A DNA stretch of 64,000 nt from an uncultured Lachnospiraceae bacterium (GTDB lineage Bacteria; Bacillota; Clostridia; Lachnospirales; Lachnospiraceae). How positions within the stretch are numbered: position 1 is the stretch's first letter; each line of letters begins with the position of its first letter. Below, in pieces: positions 1 to 12,202 of this stretch. The notes below the pieces were generated by a model. That model ran no database searches. It worked only from the letters and a program-made list of their open reading frames with translations, and was not told the origin of the DNA. Position numbers and translations under genes: made by a program. The DNA lies in the NCBI GenBank assembly GCA_947564735.1, contig CANOEC010000001.1:124001-188000 (forward strand), written 5' to 3'.

Positions 1-726
1 AACACCAATATCCCCTCCCAACAATCTACTATACTGTGTTCCAAAATTCTTCTGTCTATCTTCACTGATAGGTAATTTGGTTCCATTTATTAATGTTACT
101 GCTGTCTTTGAACGAGAGTGTATATGATGATAATTCACAAGATATGATTGATGAATTCTTAGAAAAGGAATTTTCCCACTTAGAAGCCTTCCCTCTACTT
201 CTGACAGCTTTCCATTGAATTTTTCAGTCTTATTATCTCTAAAATACACATGAATTGTTCTACCTCTGCTTTCAAAATATATAATATCAATAGAGGGAAT
301 TTTATACTCTCTATTTTTATAATGAAATGAGAAATAGAATTGCTGATTACATATTTTAAGATTTGCCTCTAAAAAGATTTTTTTAAAATTAAAGTAATCA
401 ATAGGTTTCTTGATAAACGCAAAAACATTCAACCTAAATAACTCAATCATATATTTGTCATATCCGGAAATGTAAATCAATAACGCATTTTCGTCTATTT
501 TTCTAATATTTTTAGCCGTCGTTATCCCATCTCCACTATTCATCTGTATATCCAAATATATTATATCGTATTTTATTCCATTAACTATTTCTTTTTCTAA
601 CCCATTTCCACTAAAGAAAACATCCGTATCAAACGAGATACCTTCCTTACCGCAAATTTCATGAATCATGTTATCTATTTGACCAGTAATAATTTCTTCA
701 TCATCACAAATAGCTATCTTTATCAT
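1..726 (-). CDS. LytTR-family response regulator (partial, C-terminus beyond window)
   Basis: The reading frame runs off the left edge, giving 242 residues without a stop. The N-terminus is a receiver domain: acidic pair in ICDDEE (residues 6-11), phospho-acceptor Asp59 in YLDIQM, and a conserved Lys in FIKKP. A LytTR DNA-binding domain follows from about residue 135, with the typical FLRIHQSYLVN and LPISEDR segments. The family (AgrA, ComE) activates peptide-linked operons in Gram-positive bacteria. It lies on the same strand as, and downstream of, the peptide/transporter operon, with a broken IS200-like element in between, so it is the likely regulator of that operon (inference). The partner kinase would be expected just outside the window. 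A GGGA ribosome binding site precedes the ATG. Confidence 0.9.
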   Translation of the reverse strand, partial: MIKIAICDDEEIITGQIDNMIHEICGKEGISFDTDVFFSGNGLEKEIVNGIKYDIIYLDIQMNSGDGITTAKNIRKIDENALLIYISGYDKYMIELFRLNVFAFIKKPIDYFNFKKIFLEANLKICNQQFYFSFHYKNREYKIPSIDIIYFESRGRTIHVYFRDNKTEKFNGKLSEVEGRLLSGKIPFLRIHQSYLVNYHHIHSRSKTAVTLINGTKLPISEDRQKNFGTQYSRLLGGDIGV

Positions 727-793
727 TTGCATTCCCTTTTATAATATATTGCCTAAATTCATAGTTTATTTGCAATAAAAATAATTTTCTATA

Positions 794-812
794 ATGCAAT
801 GACTAATTGCAT
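794..812. promoter_or_regulatory. Palindrome upstream of the response regulator
   Basis: ATGCAAT and ATTGCAT form a perfect 7-bp inverted repeat around a 5-nt centre, with further partial A/T pairing outside. It sits about 70 bp upstream of the regulator start in very A+T-rich DNA. It could be an operator or an mRNA hairpin. No binding protein can be named. Confidence 0.35.
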
Positions 813-1018
813 ATTATTAATATGTTGTCTTTTATATTATAACCTCTCCAAAAAAATGCTACAATACAAAACAAACAATACACAATGTCAAGACTACCGG
901 CTTAGCCAGTAGCCTGCTCTGCCCCTATAAAGGGCTTTCTCGGCGCTTCCTTACTCCGGCGCAGCCCCATAAGGGGCTTGCTGGTTTGCTTTGACTTCCT
1001 ACTGCCACTCCAAGTGGC

Positions 1019-1494
1019 TTATTTCTTGTTTTTCTTCTCCGGCTCACCCGTAAACGGGTCGATATACTCTACCAGTGACATCTGGTCGTATTCTAAATCC
1101 TCTTTCAGCTGATTCTGGATATACGTTTTGATTGCAGCTGTGTTCTTCCCTACTGTATCTACATAATATCCTCTGCACCAAAAATGCCTGTTCCCATATT
1201 TGTCTTCAAATTCGCATGTTTCTCAAATATCATTAGGGAACTTTTCCCTTTCAAATATCCTACTATCTCTGATACCGAATATTTGGGCGGTATCCTCACC
1301 AGCATATGGATATGATCCGGGCAGCATTCGGCTTCTATGATCTCTATCCCTTTTCTGCGGCATAGTGTTCCTAATATCTGACCTACATCTGCCTTAATGT
1401 CTTTATACATCACCTGTCTGCGGTATTTTGGTGCAAAAACTATATGATACTTGCATTCCCATTTTGTATGGGCTAAACTATTTGTTGTGTCCAT
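1019..1494 (-). pseudogene. tnpA: IS200-like Y1 transposase tnpA, frameshifted
   Basis: Residues 1-104 read as a normal IS200 TnpA, with the HUH motif in CCPDHIHMLV and the conserved KYHIVFAPKYRR start. After residue 104 the frame ends early at a TAG. In the -1 frame the expected continuation appears: YGNRHFW, CRGYYVDTVGKN (containing the catalytic Tyr), then a C-terminus EPEKKNKK and TAA. One missing T after the NLK codons explains this, because restoring it gives the usual NLKYKYGNR. Intact length would be 158 aa, normal for the family. The missing base separates the HUH histidines from the catalytic tyrosine, so the protein should be inactive. A sequencing error is the alternative. Confidence 0.88.
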
Positions 1495-1503
1495 CTTGGG
1501 CTC

Positions 1504-1557
1504 CTCCTGTGTTGTATTTTTGTGGTTTGCAGACCTACTTTTATACTAACACAGGAG
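1504..1557 (-). promoter_or_regulatory. Stem sequestering the tnpA ribosome binding site
   Basis: CTCCTGTGTT and AACACAGGAG are perfect 10-nt arms around a 34-nt loop. In the tnpA transcript the proximal arm contains most of the AGGAGGAG ribosome binding site, so folding would block translation. A 5' stem blocking translation is established for IS200 of enterobacteria; its use here is inferred from the matching position. Confidence 0.65.
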
Positions 1558-1628
1558 TTTCTTTTATCTAAAGATCTGCCCTCCCCCTGCATAGCAGGGG
1601 GTTTATTTTTGTCTGTGACACAATAAGC

Positions 1629-1661
1629 GCATAGTTTTAAGGTTCAACCTCAAAACTATGC
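1629..1661. terminator. Long hairpin downstream of the FtsX gene
   Basis: GCATAGTTTT pairs with AAAACTATGC, and after one mismatch AGGTT pairs with AACCT around a 1-nt loop. It starts about 40 bp after the stop of the permease gene, where the peptide operon should end. There is no clean T-tract on the minus strand, so it may be a 3' mRNA-stabilising hairpin or a weak terminator. Confidence 0.4.
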
Positions 1662-1700
1662 CCTTACGATTCAGCTTCTATAAAAACTATGTTTTCAATG

Positions 1701-4274
1701 TTATTTAGAATTATTTATTTCTTTTTTCTTTGTTTCACTAGAATATAAAAATAATGGTAAAAAAATACTTACTAAAAACATTACAAAAGAAGTACAGAAA
1801 ATGTAAATAACAGGATATTTAAATGCAAAATAGGAAACTTCATTATGCATTAATTTTCCAACCATAAACAAAATTCCATTTCCCAAAGTTAATATGAATG
1901 CTAATGTAGACATACAATAAAAAACACCTTCATAAACCAATATTGCCTTTAACTGTTTCACTGTCATCCCGATTTTTCTCATAATGATAAGTTCTTTGCT
2001 CCTGCTCATATAGCTTGTAAGAAGCGTATTATAATAACTCACAAATGCAAAAAGTATTAAAATTCCACTAAATCCTCCCATAATAATTCGTATTGCTGAA
2101 ATATAATTCTGCTCTTTAGCCAAGATATCGGAACTAGCCGTCATATAATAAGTATTGGTAATTTCTGAATTTTGATTCGCATCCCGTAAAATACCTTGGA
2201 TTATATTTTTTATCTCCTGCTCATACTCTTCGCTGACATCAAAAGAAATATTGTAAATAATCGGCTTCATATCTAATGCCGTCATTGTTTTTTCACTAAT
2301 AATAATATAGTTTAGATTCTTACCATCCCATGGCATATTTAGCTCTGGAAATCCATTTTCTGAAAAATCCAAATAACCACAACAAATAAACTCAAAATCA
2401 TTCCCACTCTCTTCAAAAAGAATCCCTGAGAGCTTCTGCCCTATCATCACGTCAGCTTCCTCTGTCTGTTTAGCAGATAATTCATGATTATGCAGTAAAA
2501 TGAAACCATTTCCCTCCTTTAAAGTATTTATATCTGTACCATATCCTTTTCTCTTAACATACGTTTCCAACTTATCTATCCATTCTTCCGAAACCACCTG
2601 TACTGTCAGCTCCGTAATAATTTCTGAATCATATTGCCATGAATCAATCCTCGGTTTTATTGCCTCTGACTTATAATTAAATGTTCCAAATCCCCCAACA
2701 CATTTATTTATATTATCACCCTTTATTCCTGTCATTTTTATAATTTCAGAAATAATTTCTTCTGACACCAGCTCGTGTCCTTTCAAATCTTCCGAAGCAT
2801 ATCCCTCATTCAAACGAAGATAATATTCCACTGCTTCTTTCGTAACACCAACCTCAAAATCCGGTTCCTGACAAATTTTGTTTGTTTGGTCTAAACCATT
2901 ACTTATTACAACTGCCAATAAAAAAACTTCAATACCGATAAATAAAGAACTTATCGTTACTAACATCTTCTTTCTGTTTCTTGTAAAATTTCTCCATGCT
3001 ATACTTAAAATGCCAAATCTTTTTGAATGCCTGTTGAAAATATATGGCATATTAATTTTTTCTTCACATTTTGAGCATTCTATCGGAGATAACTTCATAA
3101 CAGTACGAATACAACATCCAAAGGCAAACGCTTCACCTATTCCGCACAAAATCACCGCTGCAATCAACATTTCCCCTGAATATAGCTCTTTATGATTTAT
3201 ATTTCCATTTCCCACAAGATACATTTTTTCTAACAATGGCGGTAAAATAAATTTGACAGCCAGACTGCCAAATAGTATTCCCAGCATACATCCCGATAAT
3301 ATAATTCTTAACTCTGAAAAAAGAAATATTTCTCTAATCTGTTTTGGTTCTGCTCCAACCACTTTCAACAATCCATATTCCTGTTTTTCCTTACTAACCG
3401 ATATAGAAAAAATATTATAAATGAATAAATTCATGCTAAGTGTTATCAACACTATTCCGAACAATGCAAATATGCAGTTTCCAATCATACTCCGAATGGT
3501 TTTCGACGCACCCTCATTCATGATTAACAGATTCTGTTCATCTTCCAGTACGATATCCGTATTAATCTGTTTTTCCACCTGAGCAGAATTCATCCATAAC
3601 TTATCCGATTTTATCAACGCATCATTTATAAAGGAAAAACGATTCTGTTGCTCTGCAAACTCTTCTGAAAAAAATGCTTTCGGAAGTTTCTCAACATCTT
3701 CTACGTAATCTGTATAATAACCTGATAATTGAAAAGTCATATCAATATCCTCTGTACCGTTCCTAAACCAATCGAATAGAACAATATGTACTGGCAGCTC
3801 CATTCCTATTTCTGGTTCTTCAATTCCCAGATTATTTAAAACTCGAACCGACAACATAATCTCGTTGAAATTTTCAGGATACCTTCCCACAACATTATCA
3901 TATGCGGGCAAATACATTTTTTCAAAGCATTCATCACTGACCACACTACAGGTAGCAACTTTTTTACTATCCTGATACCAAACTCCGAAATTACGAACAA
4001 TTCCTAGTTCATCTACATAATCTAATTCTTTCAAATTTTGATATTGCTCTTCAGACACATTTTCCAAAATAGCAGTGGCAAAATTACCATTTTCTCTTAT
4101 TCTTTTTAGATCATCCGCTTTCACTCTGCCATTAACTATAGTTAACAATAAAAATAATGCCATTATCGAAAATGCCGTCGTCGCCTCTAAAATAATATTT
4201 CTTTTACGATTTCCAGCTGCAAAAGCATTAGAAATTTTTAAGAGAATCTGTTTTTTCTTAAATATAGTTTTCAT
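1701..4274 (-). CDS. FtsX/MacB-type ABC transporter permease
   Basis: An 857-aa membrane protein with the layout of large FtsX-domain permeases: one N-terminal membrane helix (about residues 27-50), a long extracellular domain, three helices around 265-390, another helix near 440, a second extracellular domain, and three C-terminal helices. The middle and C-terminal triplets each match an FtsX domain (segments such as SKEKQEYGLLKVVGAEPKQI and SRSKELIIMRKIGMT). It overlaps the upstream ATPase gene by one base, so the two are translationally coupled. Such pairs commonly expel or sense antimicrobial peptides, as in BceAB and lantibiotic immunity systems. Here the likely role is self-protection from the peptide encoded upstream, or its release. 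This is inference from the operon. Confidence 0.85.
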   Translation of the reverse strand: MKTIFKKKQILLKISNAFAAGNRKRNIILEATTAFSIMALFLLLTIVNGRVKADDLKRIRENGNFATAILENVSEEQYQNLKELDYVDELGIVRNFGVWYQDSKKVATCSVVSDECFEKMYLPAYDNVVGRYPENFNEIMLSVRVLNNLGIEEPEIGMELPVHIVLFDWFRNGTEDIDMTFQLSGYYTDYVEDVEKLPKAFFSEEFAEQQNRFSFINDALIKSDKLWMNSAQVEKQINTDIVLEDEQNLLIMNEGASKTIRSMIGNCIFALFGIVLITLSMNLFIYNIFSISVSKEKQEYGLLKVVGAEPKQIREIFLFSELRIILSGCMLGILFGSLAVKFILPPLLEKMYLVGNGNINHKELYSGEMLIAAVILCGIGEAFAFGCCIRTVMKLSPIECSKCEEKINMPYIFNRHSKRFGILSIAWRNFTRNRKKMLVTISSLFIGIEVFLLAVVISNGLDQTNKICQEPDFEVGVTKEAVEYYLRLNEGYASEDLKGHELVSEEIISEIIKMTGIKGDNINKCVGGFGTFNYKSEAIKPRIDSWQYDSEIITELTVQVVSEEWIDKLETYVKRKGYGTDINTLKEGNGFILLHNHELSAKQTEEADVMIGQKLSGILFEESGNDFEFICCGYLDFSENGFPELNMPWDGKNLNYIIISEKTMTALDMKPIIYNISFDVSEEYEQEIKNIIQGILRDANQNSEITNTYYMTASSDILAKEQNYISAIRIIMGGFSGILILFAFVSYYNTLLTSYMSRSKELIIMRKIGMTVKQLKAILVYEGVFYCMSTLAFILTLGNGILFMVGKLMHNEVSYFAFKYPVIYIFCTSFVMFLVSIFLPLFLYSSETKKKEINNSK

Positions 4275-4936
4275 TATAGAATTTTTCCATCTTCAATGCG
4301 GATAATCCGGTCAGCTTTTATTGCAATTTCTTCATTATGAGTGACTATTGCAACAGTTTGATTATATAGAGCAGAAAAATTTTTCATTAATGCGACAACT
4401 TCTCTGCTTCCTCTGCTATCCAAATTCCCGGTTGGCTCATCTGCCAAAACGATTGCCGGCTTTGTTATCAATGCTCTTGCTATAGCAACACGCTGTTGCT
4501 GTCCCCCGGATAAAGTATTTGGCATCTGCCATAAGTTTTCCTTAATTTTCAGATAATCAGAAATTTCATTAACAAAGTCTTCATCAACGTCGGTTCCTTC
4601 CAGCTTCAATGGTAAAATAATATTTTCATATGAAGTTAATACGGGAATCAAATTGTAATTCTGAAAAACAAACCCTATATTTCGCCGTCTGAAAATACTT
4701 AACTCTTCTTCCGTCATATCACAAATCGGAACATCCTCAATATAAACCATTCCTTTGGACGGACGATCCAATCCCCCGATTATGTTTAAAAGTGTTGTTT
4801 TTCCACTTCCGGAGGCTCCGACAATAGCAACAAACTCACCTTTCTCAATCTCTAACGATACATTATTTAATACACAAATCTCGTTATGACAATTTAAATA
4901 CTTTTTTGTGAGTGCAACTATTCTGACTGCTTTCAT
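4274..4936 (-). CDS. LolD/MacB-type ABC transporter ATPase
   Basis: A 220-aa single-domain ATPase of usual length for partners of FtsX permeases. Visible motifs in order: Walker A GASGSGKTT (about 40-48), Q-loop VFQNYNL, signature LSGGQQQR, Walker B IVLADEP followed by TGNLDS, and the switch His in VTHNEE. The TGNLDS D-loop is characteristic of the MacB/LolD/BceA group. It powers the permease encoded directly downstream. The gene starts 47 bp after the thioredoxin-like gene and belongs to the same minus-strand operon. Confidence 0.92.
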   Translation of the reverse strand: MKAVRIVALTKKYLNCHNEICVLNNVSLEIEKGEFVAIVGASGSGKTTLLNIIGGLDRPSKGMVYIEDVPICDMTEEELSIFRRRNIGFVFQNYNLIPVLTSYENIILPLKLEGTDVDEDFVNEISDYLKIKENLWQMPNTLSGGQQQRVAIARALITKPAIVLADEPTGNLDSRGSREVVALMKNFSALYNQTVAIVTHNEEIAIKADRIIRIEDGKIL

Positions 4937-4983
4937 ATCCAGTTCCTTCTATTTCCCAATGGCATTCAGAGATTCATACATAA

Positions 4984-5646
4984 TTATTCTAAATTCCAGT
5001 ATTTATCTAACGGCTCTGTATCACTACCCAAATATTCTATAATTTCTTTATCATCAAAATAATACTTTATAACATTATTGCTGTCAAACTCAACTAAAAT
5101 GGGAATTGCTGGCACACAAAAATTGTCTATTTGGAAATCACTTTTTTCCAAAACCGGATGTGTATAGACAGCATATATTTTCCCAGCTTCCTTACCTTTA
5201 TGTAATTCTACATACCTTTCATTCGCTAACACAATTTTATAGTCAATTGCCGGATATTGCTCTTTTATATCTTTTTCCGTTAAATCATTATAATATTTTA
5301 TATCACCATTACTTAACATTTCTCCAATTTCAACATCATATTTTAATTCATGTTCATCCCAGTCATAACCAATTATATTTTCGCACAATTCCGGATCAAC
5401 CATATAGACTGTTAAATTGCTACTCAGATCATTTATATCTTTCTCTATATTTTTACAATATCGGCAATCCTCCCTACTAAAATATACATAAAAATGTCCT
5501 TTCGTATTAAAGATTTCATTCAATGATACTTGTTCAACATTAGAATTTAGAACTTCCTCCTTAGCCATAGGAATTAACCTATATATTAATATGCCAAATA
5601 CTACAATAATAATCGACATAATTATAATTTTTATTTTTTTTTCCAT
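4984..5646 (-). CDS. Membrane-anchored thioredoxin-fold protein of the peptide operon
   Basis: I chose the ATG of MEKKIK because GAGG lies 8 nt upstream and the preceding gene stops 10 bp before; an in-frame ATG 16 codons earlier lies inside that gene. The 220-aa product has a positively charged N-terminus, one membrane helix (about 7-26) and an extracellular domain. A CRYC redox motif sits at 61-64 after the strand HFYVYFSRED, as in thioredoxins and bacteriocin-accessory proteins. IP in the segment VPAIPILVEF could be the cis-proline loop. Because the peptide exported by this operon has five cysteines, a role in forming or sorting its disulfides outside the cell is likely (inference). The sequence between the CxxC and the cis-proline is longer than in a minimal thioredoxin. 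Confidence 0.8.
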   Translation of the reverse strand: MEKKIKIIIMSIIIVVFGILIYRLIPMAKEEVLNSNVEQVSLNEIFNTKGHFYVYFSREDCRYCKNIEKDINDLSSNLTVYMVDPELCENIIGYDWDEHELKYDVEIGEMLSNGDIKYYNDLTEKDIKEQYPAIDYKIVLANERYVELHKGKEAGKIYAVYTHPVLEKSDFQIDNFCVPAIPILVEFDSNNVIKYYFDDKEIIEYLGSDTEPLDKYWNLE

Positions 5647-5656
5647 TCTTTTGTCC

Positions 5657-7807
5657 TCATACTTCCATATGTTTTTTATATTCTGGGAAATCATTCAATA
5701 ACTCATCAAGCTTTCCTTTAGCTATGATTTTCCCCTCATCGATTACATAAATACAATCAAAATCCCTTAAGTTATCTAACCTATGTGTGATAACAATTAA
5801 AGCTATATCTTCATCTTTTTTTAGATATTCCATAATTTTACTCTCACTAAAAGAATCCATACCATTCGTTGCTTCATCTAAAATCAGCATCTGCGGTTCA
5901 CGCAATATTGCTCTTGCTATTGCTAACTTTTGTTTTTGACCTTTTGATAAATTAGAACCCTTTTCTTCTAAAATACTTTCATAAAATCTCGGCAAAAGTT
6001 TAACAAAATCATGTACTCCTATTATTTTTGCAACATGAAGCATTTTTTCATCCGAAATATTTTCATTTCCAAATTTCAAATTTTCTTTTATATTTGATGA
6101 AAATATAAAATCCTCTTGTGAAACATAAATAATATTTTTACGAATGGATTTTCTCCCTATATTTGAAATGTCTTCATTATCAAAATAAATATGACCGCTA
6201 TTACCAGAATAAAGCTTTACTAATAATTTAGCCAACGTTGTCTTTCCAGAACCATTGCCACCAATAATCGCAATTTTTTCTCCTTTTGATATGCTAAAAT
6301 TAACTTTCTTTAAAACTCTGCATTCACTATTATATGTAAAATCGATATTATCAAAAACAATTTTATTTATATTCAATAAATTTTTTCCCTTTTCATCTTC
6401 CGACATAGACTGTATAATAATGTCCAATCTTTCCATTGCAACTTGCGCTGCATGAAATTGTGGTTGTATATCAACAATATCATCTATTGAATTTAATAAA
6501 TATCCAATAAGAACATTATACGCCACAAGATCTCCAACTGTAATATTCCCATATATAACTGCAATTGCTCCAACACACATTATTACAAATCTTCCCAGAC
6601 TACTAATAATGGTTTTTAGCGCTGTCTGATTATTTTCTATATCAGCTAACTTAACAATTGAATTTTGCCAATTCAGAAGTTTTTGTTTACCCATTTCATA
6701 AAATTTACTTTCTTGACAATATACTTTAATTGTCTCAATCCCTTCTAAAGAATCAACTAAATAACTCATCATATTAGCTTGTGAAATCATTTGTTTAGAA
6801 TTATATATTAAATAATTGTTTCTAAATAATACTGTAACAAACAAATATCCTAGACACATCAATAATACCATTATTAGAAGTTTTGTACCCTTTAAACTCA
6901 AAATTATTCCTATTATGATAATTAGTATAAGATCTATTGGCATTATTAATACGCTCGTTACTAGTATTTCTTGAATTTTATTTATATCTTGAAACCGAGA
7001 AATAAATTCTCCGTTTTTCCGACCATTCAAAAAACTAATTGGCAAATTCAAAACTTTCTGATAATATTCTAAAGATAATTTCAAATTTATATTTTTACTT
7101 ATTTCCAATGCTTTTTTTACTCTCAGTTTATTTATATAAACATTAATAATATTCAATATTATAAAAAAAAGCGTATATAAAATAAGAGAATTAACCCACA
7201 TCTTAGGAATTAATACATCCAACATGACTTTGTAATAATAAACATTTAACATATTAAAAAACATCGAAAAAAGAGATAAGAAAAAAATTTGTAAAGATAA
7301 TTTTTTCTCTGCAAAAATCAATTTTCCAAATGAATGTCCGTCTTTTTCCTTTACTATAATTTCCTTAAAGTTTTCTCCCGGTTCCACAAATATTAAAATA
7401 CCACTCCAAACATAAGGCGATTTTTCAGAAAAAAAAGAATTAAAAAAATCTTTTTTATCAATACACATCAATCCTATAGCCGGATCACTTATTATAATTT
7501 TCTCTTTCTTAATTGTATAAATTATTAAATAATGTCCTACTCCATCCTCCAAAAAAACGTGTGCTATACAAGGTACAGAAATAACATCTTCATTAAATGT
7601 TTCCATTTTCTTTGCAGCATTAGCTTTTAACCCAACTTTTTCACACGCTTTTATAATGTCAAAAACACTTGACCCCTCTTTGTTCATATTGGTATATTGC
7701 TGAAGCTTAGATAATGAAACTTTCTTTCCATAATACCATGAAATTGAAGCTATACAGGCACTCGCACAATCTGTTGATTCATACTGCTTGACACTTTTAT
7801 ATTTCAT
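5657..7807 (-). CDS. Peptidase-containing (C39) bacteriocin ABC exporter
   Basis: A 716-aa protein combining three domains. The N-terminal C39 peptidase (about 1-130) has Gln8, Cys14 in STDCASAC, His92 in GHYLII and Asp108 in SDPA, the complete catalytic set. Six membrane helices follow (about 165-440). The C-terminal ATPase has GGNGSGKTT, LSKGQKQKLAIARA and LILDEATNG. These proteins cut leaders after a Gly-Gly pair and export the mature peptide in one step. The substrate is almost certainly the GG-leader peptide encoded 137 bp upstream. Strongly A+T-rich codon use sets it apart from the genes to the right. Confidence 0.95.
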   Translation of the reverse strand: MKYKSVKQYESTDCASACIASISWYYGKKVSLSKLQQYTNMNKEGSSVFDIIKACEKVGLKANAAKKMETFNEDVISVPCIAHVFLEDGVGHYLIIYTIKKEKIIISDPAIGLMCIDKKDFFNSFFSEKSPYVWSGILIFVEPGENFKEIIVKEKDGHSFGKLIFAEKKLSLQIFFLSLFSMFFNMLNVYYYKVMLDVLIPKMWVNSLILYTLFFIILNIINVYINKLRVKKALEISKNINLKLSLEYYQKVLNLPISFLNGRKNGEFISRFQDINKIQEILVTSVLIMPIDLILIIIIGIILSLKGTKLLIMVLLMCLGYLFVTVLFRNNYLIYNSKQMISQANMMSYLVDSLEGIETIKVYCQESKFYEMGKQKLLNWQNSIVKLADIENNQTALKTIISSLGRFVIMCVGAIAVIYGNITVGDLVAYNVLIGYLLNSIDDIVDIQPQFHAAQVAMERLDIIIQSMSEDEKGKNLLNINKIVFDNIDFTYNSECRVLKKVNFSISKGEKIAIIGGNGSGKTTLAKLLVKLYSGNSGHIYFDNEDISNIGRKSIRKNIIYVSQEDFIFSSNIKENLKFGNENISDEKMLHVAKIIGVHDFVKLLPRFYESILEEKGSNLSKGQKQKLAIARAILREPQMLILDEATNGMDSFSESKIMEYLKKDEDIALIVITHRLDNLRDFDCIYVIDEGKIIAKGKLDELLNDFPEYKKHMEV

Positions 7808-7880
7808 ATTGTATTCTTCCTTTGAATTAATCCAATAAAATTTTGTTACTTTTATATTTTATAATTCAAATCATTGTGGT

Positions 7881-7918
7881 CTAAAAGAACTGAATCCATT
7901 AAATAAAAGATTCAGCTC
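7881..7918 (-). terminator. Attenuating terminator between the peptide gene and its exporter
   Basis: On the minus strand GAGCTGAATC pairs with GATTCAGTTC (one G-U pair) around a 12-nt loop, followed by TTTT. It lies between the peptide stop codon and the exporter start. Partial terminators at this place are common in bacteriocin operons and raise peptide mRNA over transporter mRNA. Function here is inferred. Confidence 0.65.
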
Positions 7919-7944
7919 TCTTAGCACCAAACTATAGTATTGCA

Positions 7945-8145
7945 TTAGTTAAAGCCACAATCTTCATAGCAGAACTGAACATACTTGCTTGCTTTATCCT
8001 GACTAACTGCCAGATATTCTGCAACTTTTTTCTGCAATGCAGCTGTGTCTGCCGGGCAGCAAAAATAGTATCCATAATTAGAATTACATTTTCCACCCTT
8101 TACAGATTTCATTTCAGTCAATGAAAGTTCTTTCATTCCTGTCAT
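7945..8145 (-). CDS. Double-glycine leader peptide, five-cysteine bacteriocin-like precursor
   Basis: A 66-aa precursor with ribosome binding site GAGGAGG 7 nt before the ATG. Residues 1-18 form a classic double-glycine leader (ELSLTEMKSVKGG pattern). Cleavage after Gly18 would release a 48-aa core starting KCNSNYGYYFCC. Cysteines are at core positions 2, 11, 12, 41 and 45, separated by a charged helical stretch that contains no Cys. There is no YGNGV box, so it is not a pediocin-type peptide, and no lanthionine or radical-SAM enzyme gene is visible nearby. The C39 exporter, the thioredoxin-like protein and the ABC pair follow on the same strand. I recognise the class but not a named family. 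A signalling peptide is the alternative to a bacteriocin. Confidence 0.85.
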   Translation of the reverse strand: MTGMKELSLTEMKSVKGGKCNSNYGYYFCCPADTAALQKKVAEYLAVSQDKASKYVQFCYEDCGFN

Positions 8146-8152
8146 AGTTTTT

Positions 8153-8181
8153 CCTCCTCTCTTTTCATTTATATTAACGAC
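8153..8181 (-). promoter_or_regulatory. Candidate promoter of the peptide operon
   Basis: TATAAA (8168-8173) would place the transcript start just ahead of the GAGGAGG ribosome binding site (8153-8159). No TTGACA-like box lies 16-18 bp upstream, which suggests an activator-dependent promoter. GTCGTT (8176-8181) abuts the -10 box, as it does at the two LytTR-linked promoters near 16.8-16.9 kb. Confidence 0.4.
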
Positions 8182-8379
8182 GGAGAACCATCATTAATAC
8201 CTTTCCAAATGAATGATTGTTATTATTGATTGATAACTAATTTATAATTCAATTAAATCATATAAGTTTTTTATTTTTTCAATCCTGTCATAAATACCCG
8301 ATTCGTTGCCAATTTTTCTTTCAATATTTGAATCAAAATAATGATTTTGGTCGATTGCAATCCGACTTTCCCGTTTTAT

Positions 8380-8695
8380 GATGTGGACCATCATCAAGCT
8401 GATGCCCGCCTGCGCCAGTTCATCAAAACTTTTTCCTTTCGGCACTACCCTGCAGATAAATTCATGGTTTACTTCTATTTCCGCCCTCTGGTACGGTGCG
8501 CTGGGGTTACAGTAATAAATCCTCGTCCTCTGGAACACTTTCCCGTCCGGTTCGTTCTCGATGCATTTCGGGTTGGAAAACTCACCCCCGTTGTCCGCCA
8601 GTATCACCGAAAACAGCCTGCGGAAATCCTGTCCTCCCAGCCAGTGGTACAATCCGTCATAAATGTCGGTCACTGACTTTGAGGTATTTGCTTCC
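8380..8695 (-). pseudogene. IS30-family transposase remnant (C-terminal part)
   Basis: The translated stretch begins with ANTSKSVTDIYDGLY and continues through VILADNGGEFSNP, YYCNPSAPYQ, EVNHEFI and PKGKSFDELAQ. This is the catalytic half of an IS30 DDE transposase, including the second Asp (in DNGGEF) and the Glu (EVNHE). The helix-turn-helix half and first catalytic Asp are missing, replaced upstream by group II intron sequence. After ISLMMVHI the match also stops and unrelated residues follow to a stop at 8242. It is a fragment broken at both ends and not functional. Confidence 0.8.
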
Positions 8696-8950
8696 GTTAG
8701 GTTTTGGGATTTCTACCCGTCTTACCGGTTGTGGTTTATAACTCCTTGTTCTGATTTGCTCTTTGATACTGTCCCATTTCTCACGGATAAATCCCTCAAG
8801 TACTTTCAGTTCCATGCCATCAACGCCGCCTGCATCCTTATTGGCGCAGACTTTCTTGTACGCTTTATTCATGCTCGTTTTGTCCAGTATTTTCTCCAAC
8901 AACTCTACTATGGCTAAAGCCAAGCCTGCTTGGCTTTGCGACGTTCTCAC
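8696..8950 (-). pseudogene. ltrA: Group II intron reverse transcriptase, N-terminal fragment
   Basis: About 85 residues match the start of group II intron-encoded proteins: LLEKILDKTSMNKAYKKV, NKDAGGVDGM, WDSIKEQIRTRSYKPQPVRRV and EIPKPNG, the first conserved block of the reverse transcriptase. It normally continues for more than 300 residues. Here it ends at KPNG, exactly where IS30 sequence begins. A GTG at the right edge is one possible start. No polymerase active site remains, so the product is inert. Confidence 0.85.
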
Positions 8951-9423
8951 AGTTCGTTGTTAATACGGCTGATGAGACCGCCTGTGAGACCTGTACCTCA
9001 CGGTACAGACCTTGGAAGCCGCCATAAAGTTCGTCGGTAGCTGCGCCTATGTGGTAGGGTCAAGTGATGGCGCGGTTATCCCGTTTCCATCACCTGCCGT
9101 CTCAAACCGTTCATGAAGTTCTCCCTCTACACCGAAGGGTTCCTCAGCACTACCTCCAGTATCTCCGTGCCTTCCATGGTCTTCGTCAGAAAGCCAATAA
9201 CTCGACTCCCTTTTGTCCCCGAAGGGTCTAAGGTAACGATGCTACAGGATTCCCTTTATGTTACGGACTGCTAACTTGCACCTATTTCACATAGGCATAC
9301 ACCACTTCAGCACAATCGGTCACCCAAGAGCACTGGATGCTTGCTACGGAGCCCACTGGCGATTACTCCGACTAGACTTTCACTGGCAAGCTGTTGACAA
9401 CTTGTAGGACACACGTCTCGCAC
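8696..9423 (-). mobile_element. Group II intron, 5' part only
   Basis: The roughly 470 bases before the reverse transcriptase fragment are G+C-rich, highly structured and non-coding, as expected for intron domains I-IV. A GTGCG that fits the conserved GUGYG 5' end of group II introns is at 9419-9423. The intron would start just after a hairpin (TGCGCC/GGCGCA, 9436-9451) and the feo terminator. Insertion next to terminator hairpins is known for class C introns. The class is inferred, and the 3' half with domains V and VI is absent from the window. Confidence 0.65.
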
Positions 9424-9460
9424 CCGTTAGAAACGTGCGCCGCAAGGCGCATTACATAAA

Positions 9461-9495
9461 AAGGCGCCCCAAGACCTATCGTCTCGAAACACCTT
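9461..9495 (-). terminator. Intrinsic terminator of the feo operon
   Basis: On the minus strand a 15-bp stem with several G-U pairs and a 5-nt loop is followed by TTTTT. It lies about 55 bp after the last feo gene. The complementary strand also gives a T-rich end, so it may stop transcription both ways. Confidence 0.75.
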
Positions 9496-9548
9496 TTTAT
9501 CATACACACATGATTTTATTCAAACTTTCATTGTTCTGAAATCCCGAT

Positions 9549-9686
9549 TTAATGGCACCCGCCGCCACAGTGCTTACAATCTCCGCCGCATTGTAGCGAC
9601 TTCCCTGCCTTTTTGTCTTTAATCATACTCCGCAGGGCAAGCGCCACTGCCGCTGCCACAACTGCCAATACAATCACTGTTCCCAT
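9549..9686 (-). CDS. FeoB-associated Cys-rich membrane protein
   Basis: A 45-aa protein with one N-terminal membrane helix (residues 3-19), a basic stretch RSMIKDKKAGK, and a cytoplasmic tail with four cysteines and two histidines in the pattern CGGDCKHCGGGCH. This matches the small Cys-rich proteins commonly encoded after feoB in Clostridia. A role in handling ferrous iron or assisting FeoB, like FeoC, is suggested for the family but not proven. It is the last gene of the feo operon, 102 bp after feoB and before the terminator. Confidence 0.85.
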   Translation of the reverse strand: MGTVIVLAVVAAAVALALRSMIKDKKAGKSLQCGGDCKHCGGGCH

Positions 9687-9788
9687 CTAATCAACTCCCG
9701 AATTCAATTTTTATTTATTTTGCAATTCTCATACTCACAAAAATGTGCTTCGCAGCCGCTTGTTTTTGTCCTACGGCTATTATATACC

Positions 9789-11951
9789 CTACTTAGCCGC
9801 CTTTGCAAATTTTCTCATATCAGCCTGCAGACTATCCGCCTCTTTATAGGGTTTAAAAAGCAGATACAAGAAAACAATTACAAGAAGGAGCGCTGCTGCC
9901 GTTCCGATTCCAAAACCACCGCCCATGAAAAATGTTCCAAGCTGATAGATGCTCATCGCCACCACATAGGCAAGCAGTGTCTGATATCCAATGGCAAACC
10001 AGAACCACTTTATATTATTCATCTCTCTCTTAATTGCTCCCATCGCCGCAAAGCAGGGCGCACACAGCAGATTGAATGCAAGAAATCCGAACGCTGCAAC
10101 AGGCGTCATAACCGCTGCCAGACTGCCCCATACTTCGACGCCGTCCTCTGCTACTTCCGCAAAGCCGAACAGCATACCGAAGGTAGCCACGACATTTTCT
10201 TTGGCAATCAATCCGGTAACTGCCGCAACCGCCATCTTCCATCCTTCTCCTGCCTGTGTCCATCCAAGCGGTGTGAAAATCCACGCAATCGCACTGCCGA
10301 CTTTCGCAAGAATGCTGGCGTCAAGCTGCTCCGCTTCCAACATGCCGAAACTTCCGTCCACCCAGCCAAAGCTCATCAGAAACCACAATACAATCGTAGA
10401 TAAGAGGATAATCGTTCCAGCCTTCTTGATAAAGGACCAGCCACGCTCCCACATGCTCCGCAGCACTGCACCGACGGTTGGCATATGGTATGCTGGAAGC
10501 TCCATCACAAAGGGAGCCGGGTCACCTGCAAACATCTTCGTTTTCTTTAAAATAATACCGGAGCAGACAATCGCCGCGATGCCAATCATCCATGCCCCCC
10601 ATGCAACCGCGCCGGAATTATTGAAAAATGCGCCTGCAATCAATGCGATAATCGGCAGCTTCGCACCACAAGGAATAAATGTCGTCGTCATAATCGTCAT
10701 CTTGCGATCCCTGTCATTCTCGATTGTACGGGACGCCATGATACCCGGCACACCGCAGCCTGTTCCGATAAGAATCGGGATAAAGGATTTTCCGGACAAA
10801 CCGAATTTGCGGAAAATACGATCCATGATAAAAGCAATACGTGCCATATATCCACACGATTCAAGGAACGCCAAGAAAATAAACAGCACAAGCATCTGCG
10901 GCACAAAACCGAGAACCGCACCGACACCAGCTACAATACCGTCTAAAATCAGCCCCTGCAGCCAGTCTGCACAGCCTATACTTACAAGTACGTTTTCAAT
11001 TGCCGGAGGTATGATTTCCCCGAACAGCACATCGTTCGTCCAGTCTGTCAGAAATCCGCCCACCGTCGTCACAGAGACATAATATACAACAAACATGACA
11101 AGTGCAAAAATCGGAAGCGCAAGCCATCTGTTTGTTACAACCTTGTCAATCTTGTCGGAAGTCGTCAATGTATTCTTCTTATTTTTGATAACGCATCCCT
11201 CGATGACAGACGCAATATACACATATCTCTCATTGGTGATAATGCTTTCCGTATCATCGTCAAAAATCTCTTCCAGATTGGCAATTTCCCTGCTCACATC
11301 GGGCACGCTGCTCATCTGCTCCTGAATCTTTGCGTCTTTTTCCAACAATTTAATCGCAAAAAATCTCTTCCGGTCCTCCGCCACACCTTTCAATGATGCA
11401 GATACAGCTGCGATTGCCTCTTCCACTCTCGCGTCAAATTGATGCACAACAGGCTGTGCCTTTCTTCCGGCAATCGCAACTGCTCTGTCAGCCGCTTCCT
11501 GAATACCGCTTCCCTTCAAAGCAGAGATTTCTACCACTTCACAGCCCAGCGCCTCACTCAGTTTCTTTGTGGAAATCTTGTCTCCGTTCTTATTCACAAG
11601 ATCCATCATATTGACCGCCATCACTACCGGAATGCCTAACTCCATCAACTGTGTGGACAAATACAGATTACGCTCGATGTTGGTGCCGTCCACAATATTG
11701 ATAATGACATCGGGACGCTCAGTAATCAGATAATTTCTTGCAACTACTTCTTCAAGCGTATAAGGCGACAAAGAATAAATCCCCGGCAAATCCATGATGA
11801 TTACGTCCTTGTTCCCTTTTAATTTTCCCTCTTTTTTCTCCACCGTAACACCCGGCCAGTTTCCTACAAACTGATTGGAACCAGTCAGTGCATTAAAAAG
11901 CGTTGTCTTACCGCAGTTTGGGTTTCCTGCGAGTGCAATTTTGATTGACAT
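9789..11951 (-). CDS. feoB: Ferrous iron transporter FeoB
   Basis: A 720-aa inner membrane Fe(II) transporter. The N-terminal G domain has G1 GNPNCGKTTLFNAL (about 8-21), the effector loop VGNWPGVTVEKKEG, G3 DLPGIYSLSPY and G4 NMMDL. A helical linker follows. The membrane part carries two gate segments with conserved Cys and Gly (GTGCGVPGIMASR and FIPCGAKLPI). Length and order are normal. It follows feoA by 29 bp and shares the iron-regulated promoter upstream of the operon. Confidence 0.97.
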   Translation of the reverse strand: MSIKIALAGNPNCGKTTLFNALTGSNQFVGNWPGVTVEKKEGKLKGNKDVIIMDLPGIYSLSPYTLEEVVARNYLITERPDVIINIVDGTNIERNLYLSTQLMELGIPVVMAVNMMDLVNKNGDKISTKKLSEALGCEVVEISALKGSGIQEAADRAVAIAGRKAQPVVHQFDARVEEAIAAVSASLKGVAEDRKRFFAIKLLEKDAKIQEQMSSVPDVSREIANLEEIFDDDTESIITNERYVYIASVIEGCVIKNKKNTLTTSDKIDKVVTNRWLALPIFALVMFVVYYVSVTTVGGFLTDWTNDVLFGEIIPPAIENVLVSIGCADWLQGLILDGIVAGVGAVLGFVPQMLVLFIFLAFLESCGYMARIAFIMDRIFRKFGLSGKSFIPILIGTGCGVPGIMASRTIENDRDRKMTIMTTTFIPCGAKLPIIALIAGAFFNNSGAVAWGAWMIGIAAIVCSGIILKKTKMFAGDPAPFVMELPAYHMPTVGAVLRSMWERGWSFIKKAGTIILLSTIVLWFLMSFGWVDGSFGMLEAEQLDASILAKVGSAIAWIFTPLGWTQAGEGWKMAVAAVTGLIAKENVVATFGMLFGFAEVAEDGVEVWGSLAAVMTPVAAFGFLAFNLLCAPCFAAMGAIKREMNNIKWFWFAIGYQTLLAYVVAMSIYQLGTFFMGGGFGIGTAAALLLVIVFLYLLFKPYKEADSLQADMRKFAKAAK

Positions 11952-11980
11952 GTTTCCTTCCTCCTATCCTTCCTATCGTC

Positions 11981-12202
11981 CTACTCAACCTCAATCATTT
12001 CCGCATCCGCCTTGCGAAGCGACAATTCATAGCCCCGGACTGTTACCTCTACCGGGTCGCCAAGCGGTGCAACCTTGCGAACATAGACGGGAATACCCTT
12101 TGTAATGCCCATATCCATGATACGTCTTTTGACCGGTCCTTCGCCTGACAGCTTCTTAACGGTCACAGTTTCTCCGCACGATACTTCTTTTAATGTCCTC
12201 AT
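11981..12202 (-). CDS. feoA: FeoA family protein (second copy)
   Basis: I chose the ATG of MRTLKEV because GGAGGAG lies just upstream; an in-frame ATG 13 codons earlier lacks a good site. The 73-aa SH3-like protein has the FeoA core PVKRRIMDMGITKGIPVYVRK and ends GYELSLRKADAEMIEVE. FeoA is cytoplasmic and thought to modulate FeoB. It directly precedes feoB. Confidence 0.93.
   Translation of the reverse strand: MRTLKEVSCGETVTVKKLSGEGPVKRRIMDMGITKGIPVYVRKVAPLGDPVEVTVRGYELSLRKADAEMIEVE

Follow-up and report, generated by a model that had tools for sequence, protein, structure and literature searches.

A probable agr-controlled, disulfide-bonded class II-type bacteriocin locus on a low-G+C island of an uncultured Lachnospiraceae bacterium

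What does the row of minus-strand genes at the start of a 64,000-nucleotide stretch of an uncultured Lachnospiraceae genome encode, and is the system a new one? The stretch, called the window below (G000:C1:124001-188000), belongs to a genome of 4.5 Mb. In minus-strand order its genes are a precursor peptide, a C39 peptidase/ABC exporter, a CxxC protein, a LolD-type ATPase, an FtsX-type permease, a transposase of the IS200/IS605 family and a LytTR response regulator. The initial annotation of this sequence had proposed a new type of peptide export and immunity system. We consider it probable that the genes belong to an island encoding an unmodified, disulfide-bonded bacteriocin of class II type under agr control. 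Genome searches were made in a sample of species at each taxonomic rank; published work, cited by PMC number, is represented by partial texts.

Results

The initial annotation had named a double-glycine (GG) leader peptide with five cysteines, a C39 exporter, a CxxC protein, a LolD/FtsX pair and a LytTR regulator; all of them were recovered in their places and on one strand, the minus strand. Its suggestion that a kinase and a second peptide gene might lie just left of the window also proved correct, a GHKL kinase and AgrD both being present there. Open reading frames are intact in nine functional genes, those for the peptide, exporter, CxxC protein, LolD, FtsX, regulator, kinase, AgrD and AgrB.

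Precursor peptide and exporter

The peptide gene (7945..8145, minus strand) encodes a precursor of 66 residues, in which a leader of 18 residues, MTGMKELSLTEMKSVKGG, is followed by a core of 48 residues with cysteines at core positions 2, 11, 12, 41 and 45 (5.4 kDa and isoelectric point 6.2, as computed). A sequence resembling a ribosome-binding site, GAGAGGAGG, lies upstream of the gene and ends 7 nucleotides before the ATG. Among 1,751 candidate starts of frames of 25-130 residues in the window, the strict GG-leader pattern was matched by this frame only (8145-7945, with two of its start codons), while 20 windows randomised by a first-order Markov model gave 0 matches. The valine at position -4 of the leader suits the pattern of C39 substrates. 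The leader is hydrophobic also at -7 (M) and -12 (L), positions at which hydrophobic residues of C39 substrates are described in the accessible part of the literature.

Searches of Pfam, NCBIfam, PHROGs, PADLOC and PDB sequences with the core gave no credible family. The peptide had no Pfam family at E 0.1, and TIGR04149 and TIGR01847 matched only its leader, below cut-off. We rejected a class IIa (pediocin-like) core, given that the YGNGV box is absent and Pfam gave no match, as well as a class IIb/Blp two-peptide type, the core having no GxxxG and the pattern scan finding no second strict GG frame in the window or in L004, a stretch that takes in the sequence left of it. In 99 genomes (the genome itself and 98 relatives) seven had a match to the core at E 0.1, this genome among them; none of the seven matched places in the six other genomes resembles a GG-leader precursor, a statement that for a 177-residue frame in G039 covers the matched stretch only. 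In G098 a GG is present at both matched places, one within a frame of 258 residues and the other 8 residues into a frame of 45.

Structure prediction from the single sequence suggests, with modest confidence, that the core folds into a beta-hairpin and two helices. The best model (predicted local distance difference test, pLDDT, 64.7; predicted template modelling score 0.48) has strands at residues 19-23 and 26-30 and helices at 34-45 and 49-63, and the other four models have pLDDT of 42-49. In a Foldseek search with the peptide model no PDB entry reached E 0.001, the best having E 0.92.

Between the peptide and exporter genes lies an RNA hairpin with a continuous stem of 17 bp plus 4 bp (7877..7929, minus strand); its region has a folding energy of -35 kcal/mol over 141 nucleotides (z -5.5), with 0 of 200 shuffles equally stable. 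The hairpin is a possible 3′ stabiliser or partial terminator, and as such would allow production of the peptide in excess of the exporter.

The exporter (5657..7807, minus strand; 716 residues) has C39 (96.4 bits, cut-off 22), ABC_membrane and ABC_tran domains. Residues Q8, C14, H92 and D108, which we take to be the catalytic residues of its C39 domain, are all present. The protein aligns over residues 2-704 to 4ry2, an ABC-type bacteriocin transporter, and the best of its NCBIfam matches is TIGR01193 (bacteriocin_ABC), with 478.8 bits, below the cut-off of 523.85. No other protein of the genome matched the C39 model. With its GG leader, hydrophobic at -7 and -12, next to a C39 exporter, the peptide fits by sequence the double-glycine type, predicted to be cut and exported by the C39 transporter.

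Within the family, 32 of 397 genomes (this one counted) had an exporter match at E 1e-80; identity was 36% and 40% for the two best. A scan of 29 of the 37 other places listed detected by pattern a GG-leader frame within 1.5 kb at 11 exporter loci; none of these 11 cores has more than three cysteines. The genome_contigs set contributed only three distant matches (23-28% identical), which lay within the ATPase part and covered no more than residues 491-703. Exporters with 36-37% identity were found in four plasmid loci: pZL221 (record labelled Pseudomonas fluorescens), Bacillus arachidis YX15, and Paraclostridium sordellii C171 and C173. Two of the four contain genes annotated as bacteriocin; a LytTR gene and a kinase gene are close by in one locus and a kinase gene in another. 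Unlike the island, all four have a HlyD-family partner and genes of the CAAX/CPBP protease family, and the annotation of the stretches shown includes neither a thioredoxin-like nor an FtsX gene; the island has no HlyD match, and the two HlyD_3 matches of the genome are on another contig, C28. A GG leader beside a C39 exporter with intact residues, together with exporter relatives linked to bacteriocins, supports the bacteriocin reading.

CxxC protein

The frame that follows (4984..5694, minus strand) has its likely start at 5646, 10 nucleotides past the exporter stop, and from there encodes 220 residues with one N-terminal hydrophobic segment and the motif CRYC. We regard this membrane-anchored, thioredoxin-like protein as a probable thiol-disulfide oxidoreductase. 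Its weak matches, all below cut-off, are to oxidoreductase families, namely Thioredoxin_2 (16.7 bits, cut-off 27), TrbB and PedC/BrcD; its structure model (pLDDT 42.1) is too poor for a reading of the fold. The CxxC motif and Pro198 are common to this protein and to a 27%-identical homologue in genome G413; across the two proteins the best E-value of the PedC/BrcD model TIGR01295 was 0.0013.

The CxxC protein is rare in the genomes searched. In the order it had matches in 2 of 392 genomes (E 0.001) and in the class in 8 of 391 (E 0.01), seven of the latter weak; in the phylum a profile built from two sequences matched in 3 of 348 genomes at E 1e-4, own genome included each time; viral_contigs and plasmids gave 0 matches. 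The homologues outside G413, those in G1429 and G1223 among them, are weak, and neither exporter nor precursor was seen in the listed part of the G1429 region (L105 4500-9500). The surroundings of the G413 gene (L014, G413:C9:371301-390868) contain, with gene names given by reading, two radical-SAM-like proteins, a subtilase-like protein and several short frames sharing QYCDPxDC, as well as three FtsX genes, two of them with their own LolD within the fetched stretch.

agr genes

The LytTR regulator gene (1..732, minus strand, its last three bases left of the window; full frame L004 14998-15732) matched LytTR with 56.5 bits (cut-off 22.6) and Response_reg with 42.7 bits. By position it is AgrA-like; the NCBIfam AgrA model gave 20.1 bits (cut-off 400). 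Directly downstream, within about 2.1 kb of the left edge of the window, are three further genes: a GHKL sensor kinase of 453 residues (G000:C1:122725-124086, minus strand; L004 15086-13725, with the 5′ end at window positions 1..86; GHKL 83.3 bits, cut-off 22), an AgrD precursor with the end NSRCALIYHQPKQPEALRKFRKF (C1:122490-122681; TIGR04223, 40.1 bits, cut-off 19) and AgrB (C1:121903-122487; PF04647, 120.7 bits, cut-off 23), the latter being one of two AgrB matches in the genome. The LytTR gene thus belongs to a complete agr-type set of AgrB, AgrD, GHKL kinase and LytTR regulator. As kinase, AgrD and AgrB lie beside it, regulation reads as agr-type quorum sensing, and the peptide operon would be controlled by an agr pheromone. 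A candidate for the pheromone ring within AgrD is Cys-Ala-Leu-Ile-Tyr, which would carry an N-terminal tail.

LolD/FtsX pair

The ATPase (4274..4936, minus strand) matched ABC_tran with 120.2 bits and, below cut-off, the models LolD, DarD, L_ocin_972 and DevA. The permease (1701..4274, minus strand; 857 residues) is of the FtsX type by domain search. Its hydropathy profile gives eight transmembrane segments and a pair of large loops outside the cytoplasm, at about residues 46-266 and 458-726. BceB is described with ten transmembrane segments and one extracytoplasmic domain between segments 7 and 8, and YbbP as a permease with two such domains (PMC5985334, in part). A BceAB-type transporter was ruled out by topology; a separate ATPase and a fused permease with two extracytoplasmic domains, as in YbbP, are features that the pair has in common with the YbbAP/MacB superfamily.

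We regard the pair as the probable self-immunity of the producer. At E 1e-25, FtsX had matches in 45 of 280 genomes (this one counted), with identities of 48% and 45% for the top two. At 6 of the 12 best FtsX places elsewhere (11 genomes) an OmpR-type response regulator adjoins the pair. BceAB-type resistance transporters likewise act together with two-component systems (PMC5985334), and the OmpR-type neighbours were counted in favour of the bacteriocin reading. In a blastp comparison of frames of at least 100 residues, 0 of the 12 loci had a CxxC homologue; AgrB was matched at 0 of 12, and the idea that agr sets are common companions of this FtsX type was dropped, the sole instance being a second locus of the same genome. 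Beside the pairs of the two closest relatives (G846 and G133) lie genes for an NlpC/P60-SH3 protein and an AAA ATPase.

The second locus, on contig C25 (L153, G000:C25:46000-59539, about 7480-12070), has AgrB (103 bits, without about the first 23 model positions), then a LolD gene that an in-frame stop codon interrupts and an FtsX frame of 921 residues, 27% identical to the window FtsX; a piece of a GHKL kinase lies beside them on the other strand. No match to the peptide, the C39 part of the exporter or the CxxC protein was found in the 13.5 kb examined. The locus resembles a decayed counterpart of the island's regulatory and immunity genes, and AgrB next to LolD/FtsX lends weak support to a link between agr genes and this ABC pair.

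Island and its acquisition

The island (C1:120881-133549, 12,669 bp) has G+C of 0.332, compared with 0.445 in the 5 kb to its left and 0.449 in the 20 kb to its right. In the congener G001 the matching flanks, feoB with a small Cys-rich gene on one side and a helix-turn-helix (HTH) regulator on the other, are separated by only 59 unmatched bp, which the island replaces; from this low-G+C stretch in place of 59 bp we conclude that all parts sit on one island. Of 61 genomes in the genus, counting this one, 56 have a feoB-type gene, some of them only as a distant paralogue. In 10 congeners with near feoB copies the flanks were compared, and the HTH regulator was within reach in four (G001 with the short gap, G057 and G042 at about 7 kb, G059 at about 2.6 kb); at E 1e-5 neither AgrB nor the exporter's C39 part had a match in any of the 10 flanks.

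A group II intron remnant (9256..9389, minus strand; RF02003, 76.9 bits) lies close to the island's right, upstream edge, and an IS30-type transposase remnant (8242..8673, minus strand; NF033563, 35.5 bits, cut-off 80) lies upstream of the peptide gene. The left edge has a weak reverse-transcriptase fragment (16.1 bits, cut-off 29.6). The contrast in G+C, the short gap in G001, the congener flanks without the parts and the remnants of mobile elements at the edges make horizontal acquisition of the island likely. The bounding intron and IS30 remnants occupy window positions 8242-9462 and L004 12419-12823, and the two sides share a stretch of 42 bases with 81% identity (window 9421-9462, L004 12782-12823).

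At the same feoB/HTH site G057 carries a different insert (L093, about 650-7040) with, by reading, an OmpR-type regulator, a kinase, LolD, FtsX and a MATE-like transporter; the insert of G042 (L095) is similar in size. The site looks like a variable spot.

The inventory of the initial annotation was complete for the parts it named and passed over the IS200/IS605-family transposase (1159..1494, minus strand), identified by profile matches between the ABC pair and the regulator gene. The region around it (window 760-1710) has only two short matches elsewhere in the genome, of 73 and about 44 bases.

Discussion

The gene anatomy, and that of some relatives, fits the following scheme of export, oxidation and immunity. 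AgrB would cut and cyclise AgrD into a pheromone; on its accumulation the GHKL kinase would sense it and activate the LytTR regulator, which in turn would switch on the genes for peptide, exporter, CxxC protein and ABC pair. During export the C39 domain is predicted to remove the 18-residue leader after Gly-Gly, and the CxxC protein, anchored in the membrane and facing outward, may guide the pairing of cysteines. The released 48-residue peptide would kill competitors, while LolD/FtsX, by means of its two extracytoplasmic domains, would remove or shield the peptide at the membrane of the producer itself. Of this, the sequence shows which genes are present, their open frames, domains and motifs, the full agr set and the insertion, whereas killing, oxidation, immunity, regulation by agr and the site of cleavage are inferred.

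Several observations weigh against this scheme. No homologue of the core was confirmed by tblastn in genome_contigs or viral_contigs, and plasmids and phages gave 0 matches at E up to 1; as the core is known in one copy with no relative found, conservation of the peptide and selection on it cannot be judged. Five is an odd number of cysteines, so that not all of them can pair within one chain. The score of the CxxC protein against TIGR01295 was 13.8 bits (E 0.039) and thus far from the PedC/BrcD cut-off of 120; its sole clear homologue, that of G413, lies directly before LolD/FtsX in what appears to be a radical-SAM peptide cluster, and in E. coli both pediocin and bactofencin could be produced without the accessory protein (PMC5465099, in part). 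Comparison of the regions upstream of the peptide gene and of agrD gave no shared motif above chance (54 of 300 randomisations reached the best alignment), and a repeat scan, made without control, found only AT-rich matches of 7 or 8 in 9. By blastp, 0 of the 12 best FtsX loci had a C39 exporter, and neither regulator nor peptide genes were recognised near the pairs of G846 and G133. Finally, the IS200/IS605 element may have changed expression of the locus.

One could suppose that LolD/FtsX and the CxxC protein form a separate, redox-assisted module of resistance to foreign peptides and take no part in the export and oxidation of the GG peptide. The G413 cluster, in which the region read shows no recognisable C39 exporter, would suit such a module, as would the two-component genes often found beside FtsX relatives and the C25 locus with its AgrB and LolD/FtsX lacking matches to exporter, CxxC protein and peptide. 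We hold it unlikely, since the CxxC gene probably begins a mere 10 nucleotides past the exporter stop and blastp detected no CxxC homologue at the 12 best LolD/FtsX loci elsewhere. Modification of the peptide is a slightly poorer candidate: the product could be a ribosomally synthesised and post-translationally modified peptide, e.g. glycocin-like as sublancin, with the extra cysteine carrying a group. Sublancin has five cysteines, and glycocins show a paired CX6C cysteine pattern. Five cysteines leave one unpaired, the clearest CxxC homologue sits beside radical-SAM-like genes, and the logic of exporter plus oxidoreductase would be the same; a glycocin locus with precursor, glycosyltransferase, C39 transporter and a pair of thioredoxin-like proteins is on record (PMC12457901, in part). 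The cysteine spacing of the core nevertheless lacks the paired glycocin pattern, and no glycosyltransferase, radical-SAM or LanM-type enzyme was recognised among the island frames read and searched, these searches including no dedicated model for those families; a glycocin assignment was rejected on both grounds.

Regulators of the LytTR/kinase kind often respond to exported peptides. The GG peptide might accordingly be a signal or an aid to its producer, be it a second pheromone or a compound sensed via the ABC pair, rather than a toxin; MacB-type ABC pairs such as BceAB do participate in peptide sensing (PMC5985334, in part). This is very unlikely in our estimate: the kinase already has a signal in AgrD/AgrB, and a 48-residue core with five cysteines, its own oxidoreductase and an ABC pair would be costly for a signal. 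We give as little weight to a decaying relic that has lost expression, to which the IS200 insertion between ABC pair and regulator and the IS30 and group II intron remnants at the edges could point; nine functional genes have open frames and the checked exporter residues are present. The preferred explanation remains the agr-controlled bacteriocin. An extended form of it has little probability: that the core, with its beta-hairpin and two helices as modelled at modest confidence, founds a new structural class of exported peptide, that its fifth cysteine has a purpose, either in a covalent dimer or in a mixed disulfide formed by a dedicated oxidoreductase of the membrane which would act for LolD/FtsX as well, and that oxidation, toxicity and self-protection would be coupled under agr control.

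How new is the system? Available texts on the pediocin and bactofencin operons describe structural, immunity, ABC transporter and thioredoxin-like accessory genes (PMC5465099), and PedC raised the potency of pediocin (PMC4919988). Pediocin PA-1 (pedABCD) and bactofencin A loci have in common with the island a structural peptide, a peptidase-containing ABC exporter and, with the CxxC protein as its probable counterpart, a thioredoxin-like accessory protein linked to disulfide pairing (PMC4919988, PMC5465099). The island differs in its core, which lacks YGNGV or any named-family match, in a CxxC protein far below the PedC/BrcD cut-off, in having an ABC pair with no small immunity protein recognised, and in agr control. 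Glycocins such as sublancin, as far as partial texts go, likewise have a C39 exporter and thiol oxidoreductases, and sublancin a GG leader. The set of AgrD, AgrB, kinase and LytTR regulator is also that of Enterococcus Fsr, which controls enterocin O16; enterocin O16 is Sec-exported and gelatinase-processed, and its gene is about 800 kb from fsr (PMC5454873, in part), whereas the island peptide has a GG leader and a C39 exporter and lies beside the agr genes. For a Lachnospiraceae strain cyclic lactone autoinducers were proposed as regulators of its bacteriocins (PMC11352710), and a paper on bacteriocins of the Hungate1000 collection reports 75 cyclic-lactone-autoinducer clusters and, next to pediocin-like genes, a PedC/BrcD protein (PMC13289728), both seen in part.

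The proposal of a new type of system is therefore not upheld: the gene set resembles known loci for disulfide-bonded class II bacteriocins, and the second peptide is AgrD, with regulation that reads as agr-type. The statement of the initial annotation that no named family has this core and this gene set held for the core and for the exact combination, neither of which had a named match in our searches, and failed for the gene set as a whole, the kind of system being already known. A literature search, mainly of open-access text and in part, found no published description of this gene combination. An orphan core alone is unsurprising, as a survey of gut class II bacteriocins counted 6,238 distinct mature sequences, mostly novel (commentary PMC12648078, in part). 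What is least ordinary is that the core has an odd fifth cysteine and that the CxxC protein is so rare.

If our reading is true, an orphan cysteine-rich bacteriocin is combined in one 12.7-kb, apparently acquired package with its own pheromone switch, an oxidoreductase and a probable immunity pump. Such packages would be relevant to strain-level competition within bacterial communities, and the locus supplies parts that can be tested, a 48-residue target for synthesis and a candidate cyclic pheromone.

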